NCBI GenBank assembly: GCA_001800315.1
Contig: MGVE01000001.1
Location: forward strand, 124,001 to 188,000
DNA length: 64,000 bases
Direction: 5' to 3'
Source of the DNA: Elusimicrobia bacterium RIFOXYA2_FULL_47_53
GTDB taxonomy: Bacteria > Elusimicrobiota > Endomicrobiia > Endomicrobiales > XYA2-FULL-47-53
The position numbers and the translations under genes were made by a program. The first letter of the stretch is position 1; each line of letters starts with the position of its first letter. The notes under the pieces are model-generated. The model saw only the letters and a list, made by a program, of their open reading frames with translations. It was not told where the DNA came from and did not search any database. Positions 24,801-38,290 of this stretch are shown here, in pieces.

Positions 24801-26117
24801 TCATAATATCCATTCACCTTTTGTTTTTTCATCGTTTAAACAATTTAATATCTTTTCCTGATCCGAAGCGCTCAGAGATGTTTTATCAAAGTTTGTTCTG
24901 CCGGCCATTGTTTTAAAGTTCTTTAATACTTCTCTTTTTACGGTGCTATCGCTGTCGTTGTACAGGTCAAATAATATTTTAATCGTATCGGGATTGGCTA
25001 TCAGCGCCAGGGCACGCACAACATTGGATCTTATCTGAGGGTTCTCGTTTTTTGACATTTTTTTTAGAAAATCAAGCGCCGAGCCCGGCGCGTACTCATA
25101 GAGGTTTTGCGCCATCGCGGCGATTCTTTCCCGGGCCGATTCAAGAGCCGGAGAAGCAAATTCACCGGTGCTTATGTCTCCGTCAAGAATTTCAAGAATC
25201 CTGGCCTGCTGCTGGTGAAAAAAAGCTTCCTGTGGGGCGGCATTCCTGCCGTATTTAGCTATCATTTCGGAACGGAGCCTTTCTTCAATCTGCCTGGTTT
25301 TCTGCTCCAGTTCTATTTTAAGCCTTTCTTCTTCCTTCCTTGATCTTTGCTTAAGTTCAACCCTGAACTGCTCGGCGATCTGATGCTCGTATTTGATTTT
25401 CTCTTTATGTTTTTCAAGTTCAATAGATACATTGTTCTTTTCTTTAGAAAGCGTTTTAAACTCCTCTTCAACCTTTAACAGGCTGGCCCTTACTTTTTTC
25501 AGGGAAATTGATTCAATTATCAGGGAGGCCAAAAGAACAATAAACCCGAGAAAGAAAACGGACGCGGCTCCCGCAAAAATAAAAAAGTATCTTATCTTGT
25601 AATCATTTGACTTGTCCCGATAAACCGCGTTAAGAGGCGCCCTCTGCTCGGCCGTTCGCTTCACGGGAGCTTCCGCCTTTACCGCCGGCTTATACTGTTT
25701 TGTAACCTGAGTCTGCGGTTCAGGATAGCTTTTTCGCTCTTTTGATTCTCCCGGTTTATTGTATTCCTGGGCGGTGTTCATCAGGTCGTTCGTAAGCTTG
25801 TATAATTCCTGAACCCTCTGGTTTTGCGGAGCGAAAGCGTTCGCTCTGCTGATGTATTCCAGGGCCTGCCTGTAGTTTCTGTTCATGTGAGCCTGGGTCG
25901 TAGCCTCAATAAGTATTTTAATAATAAATTCCCGAATTTTGGCGTTAGAAGGGTCTAATTTTTGAGCCTTTTCAAGATTTTCAACGGCTTCAGCGAAATT
26001 ACCCTGCAGATATTTCTCGGTACCGGCGTTGAAATACAAATTGGAATCTTCCGATGAGAATATCGTCCCGAGCGAGAAAAAAATAATTAAAATAATTGAA
26101 GCGGTTATTTTTATCAT
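24801..26117 (-). CDS. TPR / transmembrane / coiled-coil / HEAT-repeat scaffold protein
   Basis: This 438-residue protein belongs to no single family I recognise. It has an N-terminal signal or anchor (1-20) and TPR repeats (about 25-120; YFNAGTEKYLQGNFAEAVEN, YRQALEYISRA). A Pro/Lys-rich linker (120-170) and one strong membrane helix (about 175-202) follow. A charged coiled coil (205-310; EEEFKTLSKEKNN and ERLKIELEQKTRQIEERL) leads to C-terminal HEAT-like repeats (about 320-420; PQIRSNVVRALALIANPD). This predicts periplasmic TPRs and cytoplasmic HEAT repeats joined across the inner membrane. It follows the PorV-like TPR protein by 33 nt, so the two TPR regions could meet in the periplasm. 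Confidence 0.8.
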   Translation of the reverse strand: MIKITASIILIIFFSLGTIFSSEDSNLYFNAGTEKYLQGNFAEAVENLEKAQKLDPSNAKIREFIIKILIEATTQAHMNRNYRQALEYISRANAFAPQNQRVQELYKLTNDLMNTAQEYNKPGESKERKSYPEPQTQVTKQYKPAVKAEAPVKRTAEQRAPLNAVYRDKSNDYKIRYFFIFAGAASVFFLGFIVLLASLIIESISLKKVRASLLKVEEEFKTLSKEKNNVSIELEKHKEKIKYEHQIAEQFRVELKQRSRKEEERLKIELEQKTRQIEERLRSEMIAKYGRNAAPQEAFFHQQQARILEILDGDISTGEFASPALESARERIAAMAQNLYEYAPGSALDFLKKMSKNENPQIRSNVVRALALIANPDTIKILFDLYNDSDSTVKREVLKNFKTMAGRTNFDKTSLSASDQEKILNCLNDEKTKGEWIL

Positions 26118-26150: not shown

Positions 26151-27611
26151 TTACTGAGATATTTCCAGAATTGTCTGTATTCTCTTAAGGAGCAGAGAGG
26201 CCTCCGTGTTTTGCGGATCAATCTTCATAACCTCTATTAATTCGCCTTTAGCGTCATTATATTTCTGTTCACCCAGATATAGCTGCGCCTGAGAGAGAAA
26301 ACCCATGACCCTAACTTCCGTGTTATCGGGTTGAATATCCAGCAGGTAATTAATGTCGCTCATGGCGGCCTCGTACTTCCCTTGTTTATAGTTTGCCCGT
26401 ATTTCCTTGAGCCTTCGGACAATTGTTTCGCTGTTCATTCTTGATCTAATTTCCGCGAGCAGAGCTTTTGCCTCTTCCTGGGCAGGATCGGATTTCAGAA
26501 TCGCCTCAAGAATTTCAGCGGACGCGCTGTATTGTTTTTTCTCGTATTTATCCCTCGCGTCTATAAACATTATTATCAGCTTTGAGGAGGTTTTTAAGCG
26601 CTCTTTTTCAAAGCGGATCCGCTCCAGTTCGTTAGCCGATTTGTTTTCAAATTCAATCCTTTCATTCTTAAGGTTTTCCCACTCGCTTTTTACCCTCTCC
26701 TCGGCCTCGGTCAATATAAAGCCGTAACGGACAGTAAGCGTGAAAGAATGAATCAAATCAAGCGGATGGTATATGATAGCATAGTCAAAATCAATCTGCC
26801 TTGTTGAAAATCCGAAACCCGCGGAAAACTGCTTCTGATTCGCCCCCACGCGCCAGTGAGCCATTTTAGGATAATCGTACTCCAGGCCCGCAAACCATCT
26901 GGAAACCAGATTCCCGCTCTGGAATAAATTTAAGATATGCAGGTCAACAGCCGCCGTAAGTTTCCCCGGAATCAGTATACGGCTGTATCCGGCTTTGGGG
27001 ACAAATTCAAATACATCCGTGCCCAGCCGGGCCGGGATGATATTAGACAAGGTCAGCCCCCAGCTGTCCGCGGGAGAGGTCTTGATAATAAGGCCGGCGT
27101 CGGCTCCGGCTCCGCGCGCGGAATAATAATCAATATCCTGGGAAATAAACTTTGCTCCGCCCCCCGCGAAAATGTTTTTTGAAAGCTTGCGCGAGTATAC
27201 GGCCATTATCGTTGTGTTGACATCCGCGAAGCTTCCCAAAGTTTCTCCGAGAGCGTTGGTCTTTTCGGCATCGGAAGAGGAAAGCCTTATCAGCGAAAGC
27301 CCGAACGAATGTTTTTCGTTGAACGGATAACCGTAGCTCATAGCTATGAACTGACCCTGGGCGAACAGAGGGGTCACATTAAAGCTTGCTTCTTTCCACC
27401 AGAGGCTGGCCAGGCTGGCCGGGTTTGAATAAATCAGCTCTGCTTTGCCGTCAAGCCCTGTCCCCGCGAGCCCGAGAGAGGCGCCTCTGGCGCCTCCGGA
27501 AAACGCGTTAAGGTATTCTCCCGCGTAGCCGCTGTAGTCCTGCTGCAGCCAGGAAAATGAATCTGATGAGAGTAGCAGTAGCAGCATGATAGCCGGCGCG
27601 AGCCTTTTCAT
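26151..27611 (-). CDS. PorV/UPF0164-like outer-membrane barrel with C-terminal TPR repeats
   Basis: This 486-residue exported protein has a signal peptide (about 1-20). A region of ~280 residues follows with alternating amphipathic strands and the family opening GGARGASLGLAGTGL plus YSNPASLA, typical of PorV/UPF0164-type outer-membrane barrels. A short charged coiled coil (~305-345) leads to TPR repeats (~348-480; ARDKYEKKQYSASAEIL, IRANYKQGKYEAAMSDINYL). In Bacteroidetes, PorV shuttles type IX secretion substrates. Its direct neighbour at 28003 carries a C-terminal domain of that substrate style, which supports a related role. The TPR fusion is not standard for PorV. Domain assignment is by pattern only. 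Confidence 0.8.
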   Translation of the reverse strand: MKRLAPAIMLLLLLSSDSFSWLQQDYSGYAGEYLNAFSGGARGASLGLAGTGLDGKAELIYSNPASLASLWWKEASFNVTPLFAQGQFIAMSYGYPFNEKHSFGLSLIRLSSSDAEKTNALGETLGSFADVNTTIMAVYSRKLSKNIFAGGGAKFISQDIDYYSARGAGADAGLIIKTSPADSWGLTLSNIIPARLGTDVFEFVPKAGYSRILIPGKLTAAVDLHILNLFQSGNLVSRWFAGLEYDYPKMAHWRVGANQKQFSAGFGFSTRQIDFDYAIIYHPLDLIHSFTLTVRYGFILTEAEERVKSEWENLKNERIEFENKSANELERIRFEKERLKTSSKLIIMFIDARDKYEKKQYSASAEILEAILKSDPAQEEAKALLAEIRSRMNSETIVRRLKEIRANYKQGKYEAAMSDINYLLDIQPDNTEVRVMGFLSQAQLYLGEQKYNDAKGELIEVMKIDPQNTEASLLLKRIQTILEISQ

Positions 27612-27613
27612 AG

Positions 27614-27988
27614 TTATTGGCGCTGCAAAATCTCGTTAACCGTTGAAAGCAGGGTGGCGACTTTAAAGGGCTTCTCAAGATAGGCGGCAACACTGACGCC
27701 TTCTCTTGCTTTAAGAAATTCCTGCATATGCCCTTTGCCCGTGACAATTACAACGGGAATGCCGGCTGTTTCCGGGTTTTCCCTGAGCCTGAGATTCACG
27801 GAATAACCGTCCAGCACAGGCATCATAATGTCAAGAATTATCAAATCCGGCTTAAAGGACGCGACTTTTTTAAGAGCCTCTAAACCGTCGGCCGCGCTGT
27901 CGGTTATATAGCCGGAACCGTCCAGGGCGGATTTCAGGACGAAAACAATGTCTTTTTCGTCATCAACCACAAGCACTTTTTTGGACAT
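27614..27988 (-). CDS. Single-domain response regulator
   Basis: This 124-residue CheY-like receiver has no output domain. Acidic pocket residues are in VVDDEKD (7-13), the phospho-acceptor is Asp53 in LIILDIMMP, and the switch Thr and Lys are in IVTGKG and LEKPF (Lys106). It lies 2 nt upstream of the PorV-like gene and 14 nt after the surface-protein gene. It therefore probably passes a phospho-signal from a kinase in this cluster to a protein partner rather than to DNA. Confidence 0.92.
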   Translation of the reverse strand: MSKKVLVVDDEKDIVFVLKSALDGSGYITDSAADGLEALKKVASFKPDLIILDIMMPVLDGYSVNLRLRENPETAGIPVVIVTGKGHMQEFLKAREGVSVAAYLEKPFKVATLLSTVNEILQRQ

Positions 27989-28002
27989 ATCCCCTCCACG
28001 AC

Positions 28003-31000
28003 TTATTTTACAACCCCAATCTTCCTTAACTGCTTTTCGGAGCCGCTTTTAATCTCAAGCAGATAGATGCCGTTGGCCACATATCTCCCGGAGTTATTTT
28101 TACCGTCCCATTTTATCTCATTGGAATAGCCGGTCGGCTGGCCCTTTGCGCCTTCCGAGCCTGAAGGATAATTTCTTTCAAGCACCAGATCCCCCAGCTG
28201 TGTGTATATTTTAATGGTCGTATCGTGATTTTCCGTTAACACATAAAGAATCCTGGTCTCCTCTTTGCCGGCCGCGAAAGGGTTTGGAAAATTTGTTACG
28301 CCGGAAATCGCGGAAACAGGCGCGAGAGCCCCTACAAGAGTTATCACGCCTAATTTTGATATCGCTGTTCTAACTGCGCCGGCGCCTGAGTCAATAGAAG
28401 GGAAATCAGGAGCCGTTTCCCATTTGCCGGCATTTTCATTGAGCAGGGCGCATCTTAAGTTTTTCAGGGGCACGCTTGTGCCGTCATAATAGTTGTCTTT
28501 GTTGCTGTTGCGATATCTGAATTTAATTTCGCATTTGGGATTATCAACGGGAAGCACGCTATCGTCCGCCGCGCAAACGCTTAATCTGTATGAGTCTTCA
28601 TTCAGCGGTTTAATAAGCCTGTCGGCCAGCGTAAATTCATCAGCCATGGCTATGGCCTTGAGCTCGGACGACTGAACCTTTACAATTTTCAGGTAGCCGT
28701 TGTCAGGAAGGCCCTGCGTGATTTCAGCGTACAATTTGGAATCCGTGCTGGTGGTTTTGAAACGGCTTAAAACAAAAGCCCAGCCCGAGCCGGAACTGAT
28801 TTTTTCAAGTCCCAGAGGGTCTTTTGCCACTACTCTCCAGAAGTAAGTGGTTTCCTGGGTTAAACTTAACGGGGAAAGCCTGTAAGTGTTTGTGCTTATG
28901 CCTTCAACAACAAAGGATGGAGTGAAGTTCTCGGCTGTGCTGATGACAAGAGAAAACGAGATAATATCTTCAGGGTTCGGGTCCCCGTTATTTTCCCAGG
29001 CGAAATCAAGATTCAGCTGCGAGACATTATCCCCGCTGGCCGGATAGATAATTGAAAAATCCATCGGAGGAAAGTTCTGGTTATTAACCGAAATATCGGC
29101 TGTTGAAAGGGCCTCAGCGGAGAGCGGAGGAGCGCCGTTGTCAGTGACAATAATTTTAATCCGGTAGTTCGGGCCGTTTGGGATAGTTCTTGTATTTAAC
29201 TGGTAATAAGTCGCGTTAACCGTTGATAACAGCGAGAAATTTTCTCCGCTGTCATTTGAAATATATACGGCTGAGGAGTGAGAGTCGGCGAGATTTGGGT
29301 CGGATACGGACCAGGAAATTTGAACCGTACCGCTGATGGTTGTGCCTCCCGCGGGTGTCTGAAGCGACACCGAAGGAGCCTCGTTAATATTGGAAATCTG
29401 AAAGTTCGCGGCGGAAGCAGTTGAAAAATTCAGGCCCCTTTCGTCCGTTGCGGTTATTTTTATTTTGTGTTCGGCGCCGTTGCAGGTCTGCCGGGTATTC
29501 CATAGGTAATGGGTGGTTCCGTTTGGCAGGCCGGAGGCTACAGTAACAGGGAAAGTAAGCCCGCCGTCAAAAGATTCGTATATTGAAAACACCCTTGTGT
29601 CTCCCGGGTTAGGATCTGCCGAACTCCAGAGAATATCCTGTTCCGCGGCCCAGTTTTCCCCTCCGGACGGCGCTATAATGGTTACTAAGGGAGGAGCATT
29701 GGTTAAAGCGCTCGCCTGTGGAGAAGAGATTGTTGAAGAATTGCCGGCGATATCGTACAGCTTCACCGCGAAATAGTAGGTTGTGGAATTGTTTAAACCG
29801 TCAACGGCGACATTCTCATGATGCCCCTGCGGCGAGTTGGCGAAGCTGCCGGTGTTTTGCCCGGGAGTTGAGTCAAAGCTTCCCGCTGTAATGGCTGAAA
29901 TTGAACTGTGCCTGATGTCATAGGCCTTAAAATAGGTGTTTCCGGAGGGGCTTGAATCCCACGGAGAGGTCCAGGAAAGAATTATCTGTCCGTTGGAATA
30001 GCCTATAGAAGCTGAAAGGTCGGTTATAGGGTTTGGAGCGATCGTGTCAACATAAAGAGTATAACTGTCAGACCAGTCGCCGTAAGCGGTGGCGTCAAAG
30101 GCTCTTACCTGCCAGTACCAGGTGCCCGGGGTCAGGAGCGAGGTGGTTCCGGAAGTCAGAAAAGATGTGGTATTGAGCCCAGAGGTGCTTATTTCGGGGC
30201 TTGAGAAAGCAGGAGCGTTGTCAACCTGCAGATGGTATGTGATAATATCTCCCGTGTCAGAGTCCTGCGAGTCTAACCAGGAAAAGACGGGCCTGGAAAA
30301 ATTTGTGGTGGCGCCGGTGAGCGGCGAAAGCAGTGTTACTTTATTCGGGGCGGAATTGTATGTTACGGTTACCGACTTTATGACAGGAGTTTTGGGAAGC
30401 GTTGTCGCGTCAAAATATGCTTTATATTTTATAAATCTCCTGTTGTTATGCACTGTCGTGCCGATAGAATAAGGCGGCATGCCGGTGAAAAAAGTATTCG
30501 TATTGCCGTCCGGCCCCCTGAAACTATCCCAGTTAGCGTTGTCAGTTGACGATGCCAGCTGGAATTTTAAGGTAGTACCTGTTATAACCTGAGGGTTATC
30601 CGTGACGCTGAGCTGTTTCCACTGCAAAGATGTCGTAAAAGGCACATCAATATAGGCCGATTCAAAACTGCCGGAGGCGCGGTAAACGAAATATCTCGTT
30701 TCCTGAAGATTCGCGGTATCACTGCCGCCGAAAAAAAATGATTTTCTTTGAGAAGGAATATAGACAGCGGACTGTCCGTATCTGGCGGTAATTACATTTA
30801 ACGGCGCTTCATTGCTCAGGGCCCAGGAATTTGTTATCGGCACAAAATACCTGATATCATTGTAACGAGTCGTATTGAATATTCCTCCCGTGACGACTAT
30901 ACAGGAAGAAGTAAAAGAGTTATACGCGTCGTAGAACATTGATGAATCCGTCCTTGCTTCAGGCGCGTTACTGGCAGCGTTATAAACATACCAGGAGCTT

Positions 31001-31794
31001 GAAACTACATCGTAGGACCATAGATCCTGCATCTCCGCATTGGAAATATTAACGCCTCCGAATATAAACACTTTACCGGCATTATCGTAAGCTATTGAGG
31101 CGCCGGTGCGCGCCGCCGGCGCGGTTTGAGGCGAGGCCAGGCTCCAGGTTTTTGCGGCTATATCGTAAAACCAGGTTTCGTTTGATTTGGTTCCCTCGGT
31201 GTTGCCGCCAAAAAGAACCACCTTGGATTGATTATCAACCCTTGCCATGGAAAAGAAAGCCCTGTTTGAAGGTGAGGTTGAGACGGACTGTTCCTCCCAT
31301 TTTGTTGTGCTGCAATTGTAGAACCAGGTGTCTCCGTAGTAAGTTCCAGCCTCATTTTTACCGCCAAACAGAAGTATCCTGTTTGAGTCAAGAGGCACAA
31401 TGGTGTGTCCGTATCTTGCCTGGGGCGCCACAGTGCTTGTAATTATGTGCTGGTTCCATAAATTATTTGAGGAATTGTATTCCCAGACATCATTAAATTC
31501 ACTCCCTGAATTGTATCCGCCAAAAACTATCATGGATGAATTTGATGCCGGATTCAGGCAGGCAGAATGCCAGCGTCTTGGGGAAGGGCTTAAGGCGGGA
31601 GTCAGGTCTGAAGACCACTGAAAACTCAGCTGTATGCTGTCAGTCGCGGCGTCAACAACCTGAACCTGATCCTGCTTCCCTGAATTAAACTGGTTGTACG
31701 AGTTTTGAGTAGAAGAATTGGCAAACACAAGAGAGTCAGCCGCGCATGAGAGCAACAGGATAAGCGTATAAAATGAATGACGAATATTTCTCAC
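28003..31794 (-). CDS. Large Kelch/FN3 surface protein with FlgD-like C-terminal sorting-style domain
   Basis: This 1263-residue exported protein starts at a GTG, the only good start before the signal peptide (about 5-26). Residues ~65-376 hold six Kelch repeats (each with a GG followed by a Trp, for example IVFGGYN, LLFGGKN, VLFGGNT), enough for one six-bladed propeller. Residues ~490-1010 contain several FN3/Ig-like domains of the "PNKVTLLSP" and "GGTTISGTVQISWSVSD" type. The last ~95 residues are a FlgD-Ig-like domain with NFPNPF, IKIYTQLGDLV, KWDGKNNSG and GIYLLEIKSG, as in type IX secretion substrates. It is probably displayed on or released from the cell surface. It is flanked by response regulators and followed by a PorV-like gene. 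Confidence 0.85.
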   Translation of the reverse strand: MRNIRHSFYTLILLLSCAADSLVFANSSTQNSYNQFNSGKQDQVQVVDAATDSIQLSFQWSSDLTPALSPSPRRWHSACLNPASNSSMIVFGGYNSGSEFNDVWEYNSSNNLWNQHIITSTVAPQARYGHTIVPLDSNRILLFGGKNEAGTYYGDTWFYNCSTTKWEEQSVSTSPSNRAFFSMARVDNQSKVVLFGGNTEGTKSNETWFYDIAAKTWSLASPQTAPAARTGASIAYDNAGKVFIFGGVNISNAEMQDLWSYDVVSSSWYVYNAASNAPEARTDSSMFYDAYNSFTSSCIVVTGGIFNTTRYNDIRYFVPITNSWALSNEAPLNVITARYGQSAVYIPSQRKSFFFGGSDTANLQETRYFVYRASGSFESAYIDVPFTTSLQWKQLSVTDNPQVITGTTLKFQLASSTDNANWDSFRGPDGNTNTFFTGMPPYSIGTTVHNNRRFIKYKAYFDATTLPKTPVIKSVTVTYNSAPNKVTLLSPLTGATTNFSRPVFSWLDSQDSDTGDIITYHLQVDNAPAFSSPEISTSGLNTTSFLTSGTTSLLTPGTWYWQVRAFDATAYGDWSDSYTLYVDTIAPNPITDLSASIGYSNGQIILSWTSPWDSSPSGNTYFKAYDIRHSSISAITAGSFDSTPGQNTGSFANSPQGHHENVAVDGLNNSTTYYFAVKLYDIAGNSSTISSPQASALTNAPPLVTIIAPSGGENWAAEQDILWSSADPNPGDTRVFSIYESFDGGLTFPVTVASGLPNGTTHYLWNTRQTCNGAEHKIKITATDERGLNFSTASAANFQISNINEAPSVSLQTPAGGTTISGTVQISWSVSDPNLADSHSSAVYISNDSGENFSLLSTVNATYYQLNTRTIPNGPNYRIKIIVTDNGAPPLSAEALSTADISVNNQNFPPMDFSIIYPASGDNVSQLNLDFAWENNGDPNPEDIISFSLVISTAENFTPSFVVEGISTNTYRLSPLSLTQETTYFWRVVAKDPLGLEKISSGSGWAFVLSRFKTTSTDSKLYAEITQGLPDNGYLKIVKVQSSELKAIAMADEFTLADRLIKPLNEDSYRLSVCAADDSVLPVDNPKCEIKFRYRNSNKDNYYDGTSVPLKNLRCALLNENAGKWETAPDFPSIDSGAGAVRTAISKLGVITLVGALAPVSAISGVTNFPNPFAAGKEETRILYVLTENHDTTIKIYTQLGDLVLERNYPSGSEGAKGQPTGYSNEIKWDGKNNSGRYVANGIYLLEIKSGSEKQLRKIGVVK

Positions 31795-31863: not shown

Positions 31864-32238
31864 TTACTCAAGAAGTTTTGCCATTACGGCCTGCCTTAAG
31901 TATTTAAGGTCAAACGGCTTGAAAATGCAGTCAAAAGCGCCGATGCGAAAGGCATCAACAACTTTTTCGGCGTCGCGGTAAGCGGTAATCATAATAACAG
32001 GCAGGTCGGGCTGAATTTTTTTTAATTCTCTCAAAGTTTCAATGCCGTTCATGCCCGGCATTGCCATATCCAGAAGAACCAGATTCGCCTTCATTTCATG
32101 AAGTTTGTCAACGGCCTGCTGTCCGCTCTTAGCCGTCAACACCTTAAACCCCTCACTACTGAGAAACTCGCCAAGAATCATTAATATGTCCGGCTCGTCG
32201 TCAACAATCATGATGCTGCTCTTTTTAGTTTCTGCCAC
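31864..32238 (-). CDS. Single-domain response regulator
   Basis: This CheY-like receiver has the acidic pocket IVDDEPD (11-17), phospho-acceptor Asp57 in LVLLDMAMP and switch residues in MITAYRD and FKPFD (Lys107). I start at the GTG at 32236-32238 (124 residues), because a GGGGAGG ribosome site (32244-32250) sits five bases upstream. A TTG 45 nt further up has no such site and would add a non-homologous extension. No output domain is present. It lies between the REC-GAF-kinase gene and the surface protein and is likely a phosphotransfer partner within this cluster. Confidence 0.9.
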   Translation of the reverse strand: MAETKKSSIMIVDDEPDILMILGEFLSSEGFKVLTAKSGQQAVDKLHEMKANLVLLDMAMPGMNGIETLRELKKIQPDLPVIMITAYRDAEKVVDAFRIGAFDCIFKPFDLKYLRQAVMAKLLE

Positions 32239-32287
32239 AATAACCTCCCCGGTTAGCCACCCCTTCGCATCTTTGCTGCTCAAATTG

Positions 32288-36095: not shown

Positions 36096-36815
36096 TCACT
36101 GGGCGGCTTGTTTTCTGGCGGTAAGTATGTCAATTTCTATGCGCCTGTTCTGAGAGCGGTTCTCTTCGGTGTCATTGGATAAAACAGGGCGGAATTCCCC
36201 ATACCCCGCTGCGGCGAACCTCCGCGGGTCTAATCCTTCATTTTTTACAAAGTAGTTAACCACTTCCATGGCTCTGGCTATTGAAAGCTCCCAGTTGGAT
36301 TTAAATTTGCCGCCGTGGATGGGAAGATTGTCGGTATGGCCTTCAACTATTATCTCATTATCCGTCTGCTTCAGGATTATCTGGGCCATCTCGTGCATCA
36401 GTTCTTTTGATTCCTTTTTAAGCTCAAACTGGCCTACATCAAAAAGTATAGGGTTCGCGAAAACAACCTTGATATGATCCGCCGCGCTGTTAACCGTGAT
36501 GAAGTTTTTAAGATGCAGTTTTTCTATCATGTCGTCAAATTTTGAGACTATCTGGTCATTTTTATCCTGTTCCACCATTTTTTCAATAAGGTCTTTATTT
36601 ACCTCTCCGCCCATCTCCGCCTGAATGTCGGCCACTATCTTCTGGAAGCTTTTATCCTGTTTTGAATTATAGGCGAACGCGAACATCAGAAGAAAGAATA
36701 TCATTAAAACCGTCATGAAGTCCGCGTATGGAACTATCCATAGGTCTCCGAGATCGGTCTGGTGATCTTCTTCTCTTGTGGCATTCTCCCAGTCTCTTGA
36801 CGAGTATTTAGACAT
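36096..36815 (-). CDS. MotB-like stator protein with OmpA peptidoglycan-binding domain (second copy)
   Basis: This 239-residue protein has a short cytoplasmic N-terminus and one membrane helix with the proton-carrying Asp32 in PYADFMTVLMIFFLLMF. A linker (~50-120) leads to a C-terminal OmpA/MotB domain (VEGHTDNLPI, NWELSIARA, GYGEFRP, NRRIEI). These features define a MotB-type stator subunit anchored to peptidoglycan. It is 5 nt from the other MotB-like gene and differs from it in sequence, so the motor may contain two kinds of B subunit. No flagellar gene is in the window. Confidence 0.9.
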   Translation of the reverse strand: MSKYSSRDWENATREEDHQTDLGDLWIVPYADFMTVLMIFFLLMFAFAYNSKQDKSFQKIVADIQAEMGGEVNKDLIEKMVEQDKNDQIVSKFDDMIEKLHLKNFITVNSAADHIKVVFANPILFDVGQFELKKESKELMHEMAQIILKQTDNEIIVEGHTDNLPIHGGKFKSNWELSIARAMEVVNYFVKNEGLDPRRFAAAGYGEFRPVLSNDTEENRSQNRRIEIDILTARKQAAQ

Positions 36816-36820
36816 AGCCC

Positions 36821-37510
36821 CTACTTTATTTTGATAATGCTGATTTCTATTCTTCTGTTTATCATTCTGTTTTCCGGATTGTCATTGGGCGCCTTGGGCC
36901 TGAACTCGCCATAGCCAAGGGCCGAAATCCTTTTTGGCTCAATACCCTCTTTGTCTATCAGGTATTGTATGACGCTAAAGGCCCGGGCGGCCGAAAGTTC
37001 CCAATTTGAGGCGTATTCGCCCCCGGCAGTTATCGCGATGTTGTCCGTATGCCCTTCAACAACAACTCTGTTTGTGGTATTTTTTATAAGGTTTGAAATT
37101 TCGCTCAGCGTTTTTATGGTCGCGGCCTTAAGCTCGGCGCTGCCGGAATCAAAGAGAACGGGGCTTGGCAGGACTATTTTTATTTTTTCTTCGTTTATTT
37201 CAACATTGGCGAACTGCTGTTTTGCTTTTTTCTCCAGGTCTTCCTGTTCTTCCATCTGAGTCTGCCGCTTCTTTTCCAGGCCCTTTTCAGTTTCCATTAC
37301 CTCGTTTTTCTGTCCGCCGAAAGTTTCGGCGAATGAAGAGGCCGCCAGCTGCCTGTCGCTTTCATCCAGCCAGGTCAGGCAATAGGACATAAGGAAAAAT
37401 ATCATGAGATTGGTGATCATATCGGTGTATATGATCATCCAAAGCGGCGCTTTCAGGTCAGAATCCACGCCTCTGACATTGTCGTAGTTAGGCGAAAACG
37501 GGTCTGACAT
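36821..37510 (-). CDS. MotB-like stator protein with OmpA peptidoglycan-binding domain (first copy)
   Basis: This 229-residue relative of the neighbouring MotB-like protein has the membrane Asp30 in IIYTDMITNLMIFFL, a charged linker rich in Glu/Lys/Gln (~65-105) and a C-terminal OmpA domain (VEGHTDNIAI, SNWELSAARAF, GYGEFRPKAP, NRRIEI). Both B subunits retain the channel Asp and peptidoglycan motifs, so neither is an obvious dead paralogue. The gene follows motA by 3 nt, indicating a coupled operon. Confidence 0.9.
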   Translation of the reverse strand: MSDPFSPNYDNVRGVDSDLKAPLWMIIYTDMITNLMIFFLMSYCLTWLDESDRQLAASSFAETFGGQKNEVMETEKGLEKKRQTQMEEQEDLEKKAKQQFANVEINEEKIKIVLPSPVLFDSGSAELKAATIKTLSEISNLIKNTTNRVVVEGHTDNIAITAGGEYASNWELSAARAFSVIQYLIDKEGIEPKRISALGYGEFRPKAPNDNPENRMINRRIEISIIKIK

Positions 37511-37513
37511 TAA

Positions 37514-38290
37514 TTACTCCCGGACGGGTTTTTTGCTGCGCAGCTTCGCGGCCATGAAAGCCTGAAGTTTCCTGTTTAAAATAATAGGTATGTCGCCTTT
37601 CTGAATGGAAAGAATTCCTTCTATCATAACTTCTTTAATCAGGAGTTCTTCCTCGGTGTGGGCGTCCAGTTTGTTCGCCATGGGAAGGAAAAGAAAGTTC
37701 GCGGCGGAGATGCCGTAAAATGTTCCGGTAACGGCGATCGCCATTGAGTGGCCGAGGTTTTTCGGGTCGCTTATGCTTTTAAGCACCTGCACAACGCCGA
37801 GCAGTGTCGCCAGAAGGCCGAAGATCGGAGAGAAAGTTCCCAGCGAGCGGATAACATTGCTTACCTGGTGATGGCGTTTCCTGATAAAGGTGATTTCTTT
37901 TAAAAGATTCTCGCGCACCATCTGAGGCTCAAGGCCGTCAATGAGCATTAAAATTCCGTCGGCAAGAAATCTGTCCTTTACCCTGCCTACATCTTCCTGC
38001 AGGGAGTATATGCCTTCTCTTTTGGCTTTTTCAGAAAAATTTACCAGAGACGAGATAACATCATTTGGTTTAAGAGTTTTTCTGGCAAGGAATACATTAA
38101 GAAGCGCTCCGGGCAGCCTGAGCACAACTTCCATAGGGGTTGAGATAAGCATAGAGGCGAAAGTCCCGCCGAAAACCAGCACAAACGCGTCCCTGTGCCA
38201 GAGCAGATGAGATGTTCCGCCCCAGTACATTACGATGTAAACAGCTCCGAAACCAAGGCCTAATCCAAGCAGTGTCATGAAATCAAGCAT
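37514..38290 (-). CDS. MotA-like ion-channel stator protein
   Basis: This 258-residue inner-membrane protein of the MotA/TolQ/ExbB superfamily is of MotA length. It has membrane helices near 5-22, 33-52, ~150-175 and ~185-205, with the conserved GTFSPIFGLLATLLGVVQV and AVTGTFYGISAANFLFLP segments that line the ion path. A cytoplasmic loop between helices 2 and 3 carries charged residues (SEKAKREGIYSLQEDV). It heads an operon with two MotB-like proteins and a coiled-coil protein. A GGGAGAAG ribosome site lies before the ATG. Flagellar use cannot be judged from this window. Confidence 0.92.
   Translation of the reverse strand: MLDFMTLLGLGLGFGAVYIVMYWGGTSHLLWHRDAFVLVFGGTFASMLISTPMEVVLRLPGALLNVFLARKTLKPNDVISSLVNFSEKAKREGIYSLQEDVGRVKDRFLADGILMLIDGLEPQMVRENLLKEITFIRKRHHQVSNVIRSLGTFSPIFGLLATLLGVVQVLKSISDPKNLGHSMAIAVTGTFYGISAANFLFLPMANKLDAHTEEELLIKEVMIEGILSIQKGDIPIILNRKLQAFMAAKLRSKKPVRE

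Follow-up and report, generated by a model that had tools for sequence, protein, structure and literature searches.

Does a large surface protein that ends in a sorting-like domain and lies beside a PorV-like barrel represent a substrate and its shuttle of a type IX secretion system (T9SS) outside Bacteroidetes? The question is raised by a 64,000-nucleotide stretch of DNA (the window) from Elusimicrobia bacterium RIFOXYA2_FULL_47_53 (assembly GCA_001800315.1, contig MGVE01000001.1, positions 124,001 to 188,000), for which an original prediction, made from the letters alone, had suggested such a pair in a non-Bacteroidetes lineage. The host indeed belongs to Elusimicrobiota, Endomicrobiales. 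T9SS has been described as restricted to Bacteroidetes (PMC4793230, PMC7463736) and has been placed in the Fibrobacteres-Bacteroidetes-Chlorobi (FCB) group (PMC11205867). No report of T9SS in Elusimicrobiota was found in the open-access literature, nor anything pertinent on FlgD-like C-terminal domains (CTDs) or on PorV of candidate phyla; subscription papers lay outside this search, and an earlier report is possible. We find that the window is best explained as carrying one of many related substrate/shuttle pairs that feed a single SprA-like translocon. A little-studied phylum would then carry a T9SS-like machine of a kind thought confined to Bacteroidetes and close allies.

Three open reading frames (ORFs) on the minus strand make up the pair and the gene between its members, exactly as originally placed. 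The putative substrate, a kelch/fibronectin type III (FN3) surface protein of 1263 residues (28003..31794), has an N-terminal Sec-type signal, kelch repeats at approximately residues 86-313 (30856..31539; PF24681 at 4.6e-51, PF13415, PF13418), further immunoglobulin (Ig)/FN3-like domains in Pfam, and a C-terminal sorting domain (residues 1165-1263; 28006..28302). It is separated by a single-domain response regulator of 124 residues (27614..27988; PF00072) from a 486-residue PorV-family barrel fused to TPRs (26151..27611), which we propose as its dedicated shuttle. The sorting domain matches FlgD_ig at 27.1 bits (cut-off 27), and on the same residues Por_Secre_tail (PF18962) scores 16.8 (cut-off 27) and TIGR04183 scores 19.8 (cut-off 23). 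Its structure model has an Ig fold (predicted local distance difference test, pLDDT, 89.9), and a fold search of PDB ranks PorZ (5m11) first and PorU (6za2) next, with FlgD (3c12) at rank 11 and the translocon-bound NucA CTD at rank 12; the E-values are modest (8e-5 and weaker), and the rank order carries limited weight. The anticipated resemblance to T9SS substrate tails is upheld in that the fold lies nearest to PorZ and PorU and type A profiles match the same residues, though below cut-off; we regard the tail as a type-A-like CTD.

The barrel passes the NCBIfam PorV/PorQ family NF033709 at 94.5 bits (cut-off 90). Its model has 14 strands (approximately residues 30-298; 26718..27524) preceded by helices, with pLDDT 88.2 and predicted template modelling score 0.62; in PDB it matches two PorV chains from the SprA translocon best (8gl6_F and 6h3i_F), with FadL next. 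The barrel had been called PorV/UPF0164-like; the PorV half of that description stands, including the fold, while Pfam UPF0164 gave no match. The PorP/SprF family PF11751 was likewise without a match in this barrel and was reached by one of ten other barrels scanned (22.9 vs 22.3 bits).

A putative translocon for the pair is encoded on the same contig. Using G000 for the source genome, other G numbers for compared genomes, C for contigs and L for fetched locus stretches, the single SprA-like protein of the genome (1768 residues) lies at G000:C1:14175-19472. A profile of 11 aligned relatives finds the solved SprA (6h3i) at E=1.8e-29 in three colinear stretches, and TIGR04189 matches every one of the 11. 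The link to solved SprA depended on the alignment profile: phmmer with the single sequence against PDB returned noise, and no Pfam family matched the protein. Of 177 good genomes sampled from the phylum, 168 have a SprA-like protein. ComF lies near it in 27 of 30 loci longer than 14 kb and LptF/LptG in 13 of the 30, a neighbourhood that fits, and does not prove, vertical inheritance. Named relatives are mostly Elusimicrobia and Endomicrobia metagenome-assembled genomes (MAGs), and some record titles read Clostridia, Deltaproteobacteria or just bacterium; the SprA-like genes in Clostridia- or Deltaproteobacteria-titled records (L112, L122, L133, L136) may reflect mislabelled MAGs or transfer.

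Tails and barrels are numerous in the source genome. A tail profile built from 18 of its tails, with seeds selected by FlgD_ig alone, finds 36 tail proteins, so the tail is not a chance motif; further proteins with the same tail had been expected if the pair was real. The PorV_fam profile gives 30 barrel genes (35 matches merged by us, with a contig-end fragment left out). A tail gene is the neighbour of 25 of these 30 barrels, in 23 cases directly and in two (the window pair and one on C14) across one intervening ORF. The tail lies upstream of the barrel in 22 pairs, many of them with gaps of -4 to +34 bases. Viewed from the tails, 23 of 36 have a barrel on the same strand within 1 kb, compared with a mean of 0.77 and a maximum of 5 in 2000 random barrel placements. 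The loci fetched from other genomes show the same for 39 of 53 tails, in a sample biased by the many loci fetched because of SprA, MotB or tails. The suggestion of a substrate/shuttle pair is thus supported by sequence, and its scale was underestimated, with approximately 25 pairs in this genome. The findings named beforehand as speaking against it, a lack of a SprA-like translocon and of further tail proteins or a barrel model unlike PorV, were not obtained.

The pairs appear to be lost together with SprA. Barrels and tails were counted in 72 genomes selected to include SprA-negative ones, with SprA status copied by hand from the phylum table and short or broken matches labelled by us as degraded. 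At least two tails occur in 49 of 51 genomes with intact SprA and in 2 of 21 with SprA absent or degraded, the two being G019 (partial SprA) and G117 (280 contigs). Among genomes of 1.0-1.4 Mb within genus g7, summed barrel and tail counts are 3-14 where SprA is intact vs 0-5 where it is lost.

Gene order around the window pair is conserved as well. The series of kelch-tail protein, small receiver, barrel/TPR protein and TPR/HEAT protein (the last at 24801..26117, minus strand; PF13646, PF07719) recurs in five other genomes, at loci selected for similar tail proteins: G001 of the same family, G005 of the same order, G062 of the same class, and G043 and G047, which share only the phylum and belong to another class.

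What the barrel recognizes is likely the tail itself, because proteins consisting of little else sit beside barrels. Several ORFs of 129-142 residues comprise nothing but a signal-like N-terminus and the tail, and each adjoins a PorV-like barrel gene (L076:9340-9729, L139:5182-5580, L080:15400-15789, L170:7882-8286, L178:18323-18730, L202:15581-16009). In L139 and L170 a far longer tail gene immediately precedes the tail-only gene. A hydrophobicity heuristic (threshold 2.2) detects a signal-like N-terminus in 26 of 33 tail genes; as the background is also high (149 of 274), this count supports export only weakly. Three of the seven genes that fail start at the edge of the fetched region (C6:90170, C14:28001, C8:197000), and the other four, the window protein included, score 1.85-2.18. 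The N-termini read by eye are more persuasive for export than the count.

Tail-bearing proteins vary greatly in length. An open frame of 17343 residues ending in the tail runs from G000:C6:90170 to approximately 142200 (L076, L243-L245), and Pfam shows little in it beyond Ig-like domains. Similar giant tail frames occur in G007:C31, G058:C11, G068:C1, G047:C3, G125:C12 and G043:C1; such frames span 17-19 thousand residues across several further families of the phylum, with one of 24396 in G004:C22.

The fusion of PorV to TPRs (residues 351-478; 26178..26561, minus strand; PF14559, PF14853) had been noted as an unusual form, and it proves to be one of several recurrent fusions. Among ten longer barrels scanned, five carry TPR, two OmpA and two LysM, with one TPR and one LysM case below cut-off, and the last matches barrel families only; barrels longer than 420 residues make up 42 of 73 in the loci of other genomes. 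OmpA and LysM domains bind peptidoglycan, hence our idea that the fused TPR, OmpA or LysM parts may anchor the barrel to the periplasm or cell wall. One barrel-OmpA protein (L138:8258-10432) has internal CHU_C and FlgD_ig matches, placing shuttle and tail-like domains in one chain.

We consider it probable that these genes belong to a divergent, phylum-wide SprA pathway: most substrates would come with a PorV-family shuttle of their own, dedicated to them and remaining in place afterwards as an anchor. The parts, their pairing, conserved order and co-loss are read from sequence and the folds from prediction. From these we infer shuttle function, docking, order of events, pair specificity, CTD retention and anchoring as follows. 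The kelch/FN3 protein would cross the inner membrane by Sec, and its CTD would then guide it into the SprA-like pore. At the side gate of that pore the PorV-family barrel paired with it would dock, bind the CTD and bring its cargo out into the membrane. As no C25 sortase was detected, the CTD probably remains attached to the barrel, which would make the barrel a surface anchor too; the TPR tail of the barrel, or OmpA or LysM in some other pairs, would tie it to the periplasm or cell wall.

Several observations weigh against this pathway. The source SprA-like protein scores 166 bits, under the TIGR04189 equivalog cut-off of 200, and the type A CTD models stay under their cut-offs on the window tail. 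The Fisher P of 3.5e-13 for co-loss of tails with SprA is overstated, as it assumes independence and the genomes concerned are related. GldL and GldM (the PorL/PorM motor), among the parts for which a genome search had been proposed, gave no match over cut-off in 40 genomes, where strong divergence is possible; the best GldL match, of 24.7 bits in a single genome, does not reach the cut-off, and control genomes match as well. The known GldLM motor thus appears to be missing or unrecognisable, and we therefore call the system T9SS-like and do not file it as T9SS. Finally, for the tails C20:242920, C9:44438 and C7:104551, which lie inside contigs, no barrel on the same strand was found within 25 kb or the length of the contig, so these orphans are not mere edge effects; all 14 unpaired tails in the loci of other genomes have more than 4 kb of fetched downstream sequence. 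Unpaired tails must share shuttles or serve another role, and a diverged barrel missed by the profiles is possible beside them.

Shared shuttles could be the general rule: secretion would depend on SprA, adjacency would reflect co-expression, and most PorV-family barrels would serve many tails. The tails without a nearby barrel fit this, as does the use of one PorV by all type A substrates of F. johnsoniae (PMC12618676). However, a single genome keeps some 30 barrels, of which 25 each have a tail gene as neighbour, and barrel and tail counts rise together across genomes (Spearman 0.95, among related genomes and with barrel counts in the richest ones being lower bounds), and we regard general sharing as possible but distinctly less probable than dedicated shuttles. 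A more sceptical view is that the barrels are ordinary FadL-type uptake channels, the tails plain Ig domains and their pairing a coincidence within surface gene clusters. In its favour, FadL comes after PorV among the structural matches of the barrel model, Ig domains are widespread, and the tail has modest structural E-values; yet pairing far above chance, joint loss of tails and barrels with SprA, and signal-plus-tail-only proteins beside barrels make this explanation very improbable.

A different role is suggested by orphan motor genes upstream of the module, where MotB, MotB and MotA lie at 36096..38290 (minus strand; PF13677, PF00691, PF01618). The tail proteins beside them could be adhesins moved in surface motility by MotA/MotB acting on wall-linked shuttles. 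MotA-MotB-MotB adjoin the module in the source genome and G001, with MotB only in G005, but no MotA/MotB matches occur near the module in the stretches read from G062, G043 and G047. Outside the source genome a PorV-like barrel is found in 27 of 49 MotB regions vs 3 of 20 arbitrary regions (P=0.003), whereas tail enrichment (19 of 49 vs 3 of 20) is not significant (P=0.086). MotB regions reach up to approximately 10 kb on each side, less at contig ends; the controls are regions of approximately 20 kb at hand-picked positions from part of the same genomes, and the question was prompted by the hit lists. MotA/MotB of the order are probably not flagellar, because a search of 40 genomes of the order detected no member of the FlhA family (FHIPEP); the four flagellate controls match, and FlhA was the sole flagellar family searched. 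MotB (MotB_plug) occurs in just 22 of 50 SprA-positive genomes, which rules out MotAB as a general secretion motor, and we hold the motility account to be unlikely. About equally doubtful is a composite in which the SprA pathway runs without GldLM and PorU, personal shuttles act as wall-linked tethers, CTD-only proteins are shuttle place-holders, and MotAB of some lineages move adhesins via the shuttles. Elsewhere in the phylum, some PorV-like barrels lie approximately 500 bases from a MotB match.

With no FlhA in the 40 genomes of the order searched, we also reject the reading of the tails as FlgD hook proteins; the hook cap FlgD has a related Ig domain (PF13860), whereas the domain here ends large exported proteins. 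Shared with the T9SS of Bacteroidota are a SprA-like translocon, PorV-family barrels and C-terminal Ig-fold sorting domains on Sec-exported proteins, and the differences are scores below family cut-offs for SprA and CTDs, undetected GldL, GldM and C25 PorU, and approximately 30 barrels, most with a neighbouring substrate, in place of one PorV. Cognate PorP/SprF-like shuttles serve the type B substrates of F. johnsoniae, and in 9 of 12 cases the two genes are neighbours (PMC12618676); a complex of PorE, PorP and a type B substrate has also been described (PMC9143113). The type B pairs of Flavobacterium and Porphyromonas resemble those described here in having a barrel gene beside each substrate and a peptidoglycan-linked partner; unlike them, the barrels here are of the PorV family, the tails are type-A-like, and the barrel protein itself includes the wall-binding or TPR part, where PorE is separate. 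The layout looks like an extension of type B/SprF logic to the PorV/type A branch. PorZ keeps its CTD, which binds PorQ (PMC10202324); this is a precedent for a type A CTD remaining on a PorV-like barrel of its own, as we propose, with one pair there and approximately 25 here.

A phylum-wide set of SprA, PorV and CTDs in which GldLM goes undetected raises the questions of what a minimal secretion core comprises and how it is powered. With a shuttle for each substrate, many natural CTD-barrel pairs would be available for recognition tests, and losses of the SprA pathway in gut symbionts offer comparisons. A PorU-type C25 peptidase (PF01364) was not found in the source genome, by a search that gave no match in any control genome. 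Near SprA and beside its own barrel lies a tail-bearing M6-type metallopeptidase with an HExxH motif (HEYGH; L064:15992-17635, G000:C1), and 4 of the 30 named loci longer than 14 kb have a relative of it no more than 6 kb from SprA; it is our speculation that this enzyme might stand in for PorU. In the window, a second response regulator lies upstream of the substrate (31864..32283, minus strand; PF00072), and among the loci read it occupies the same place only in G062.
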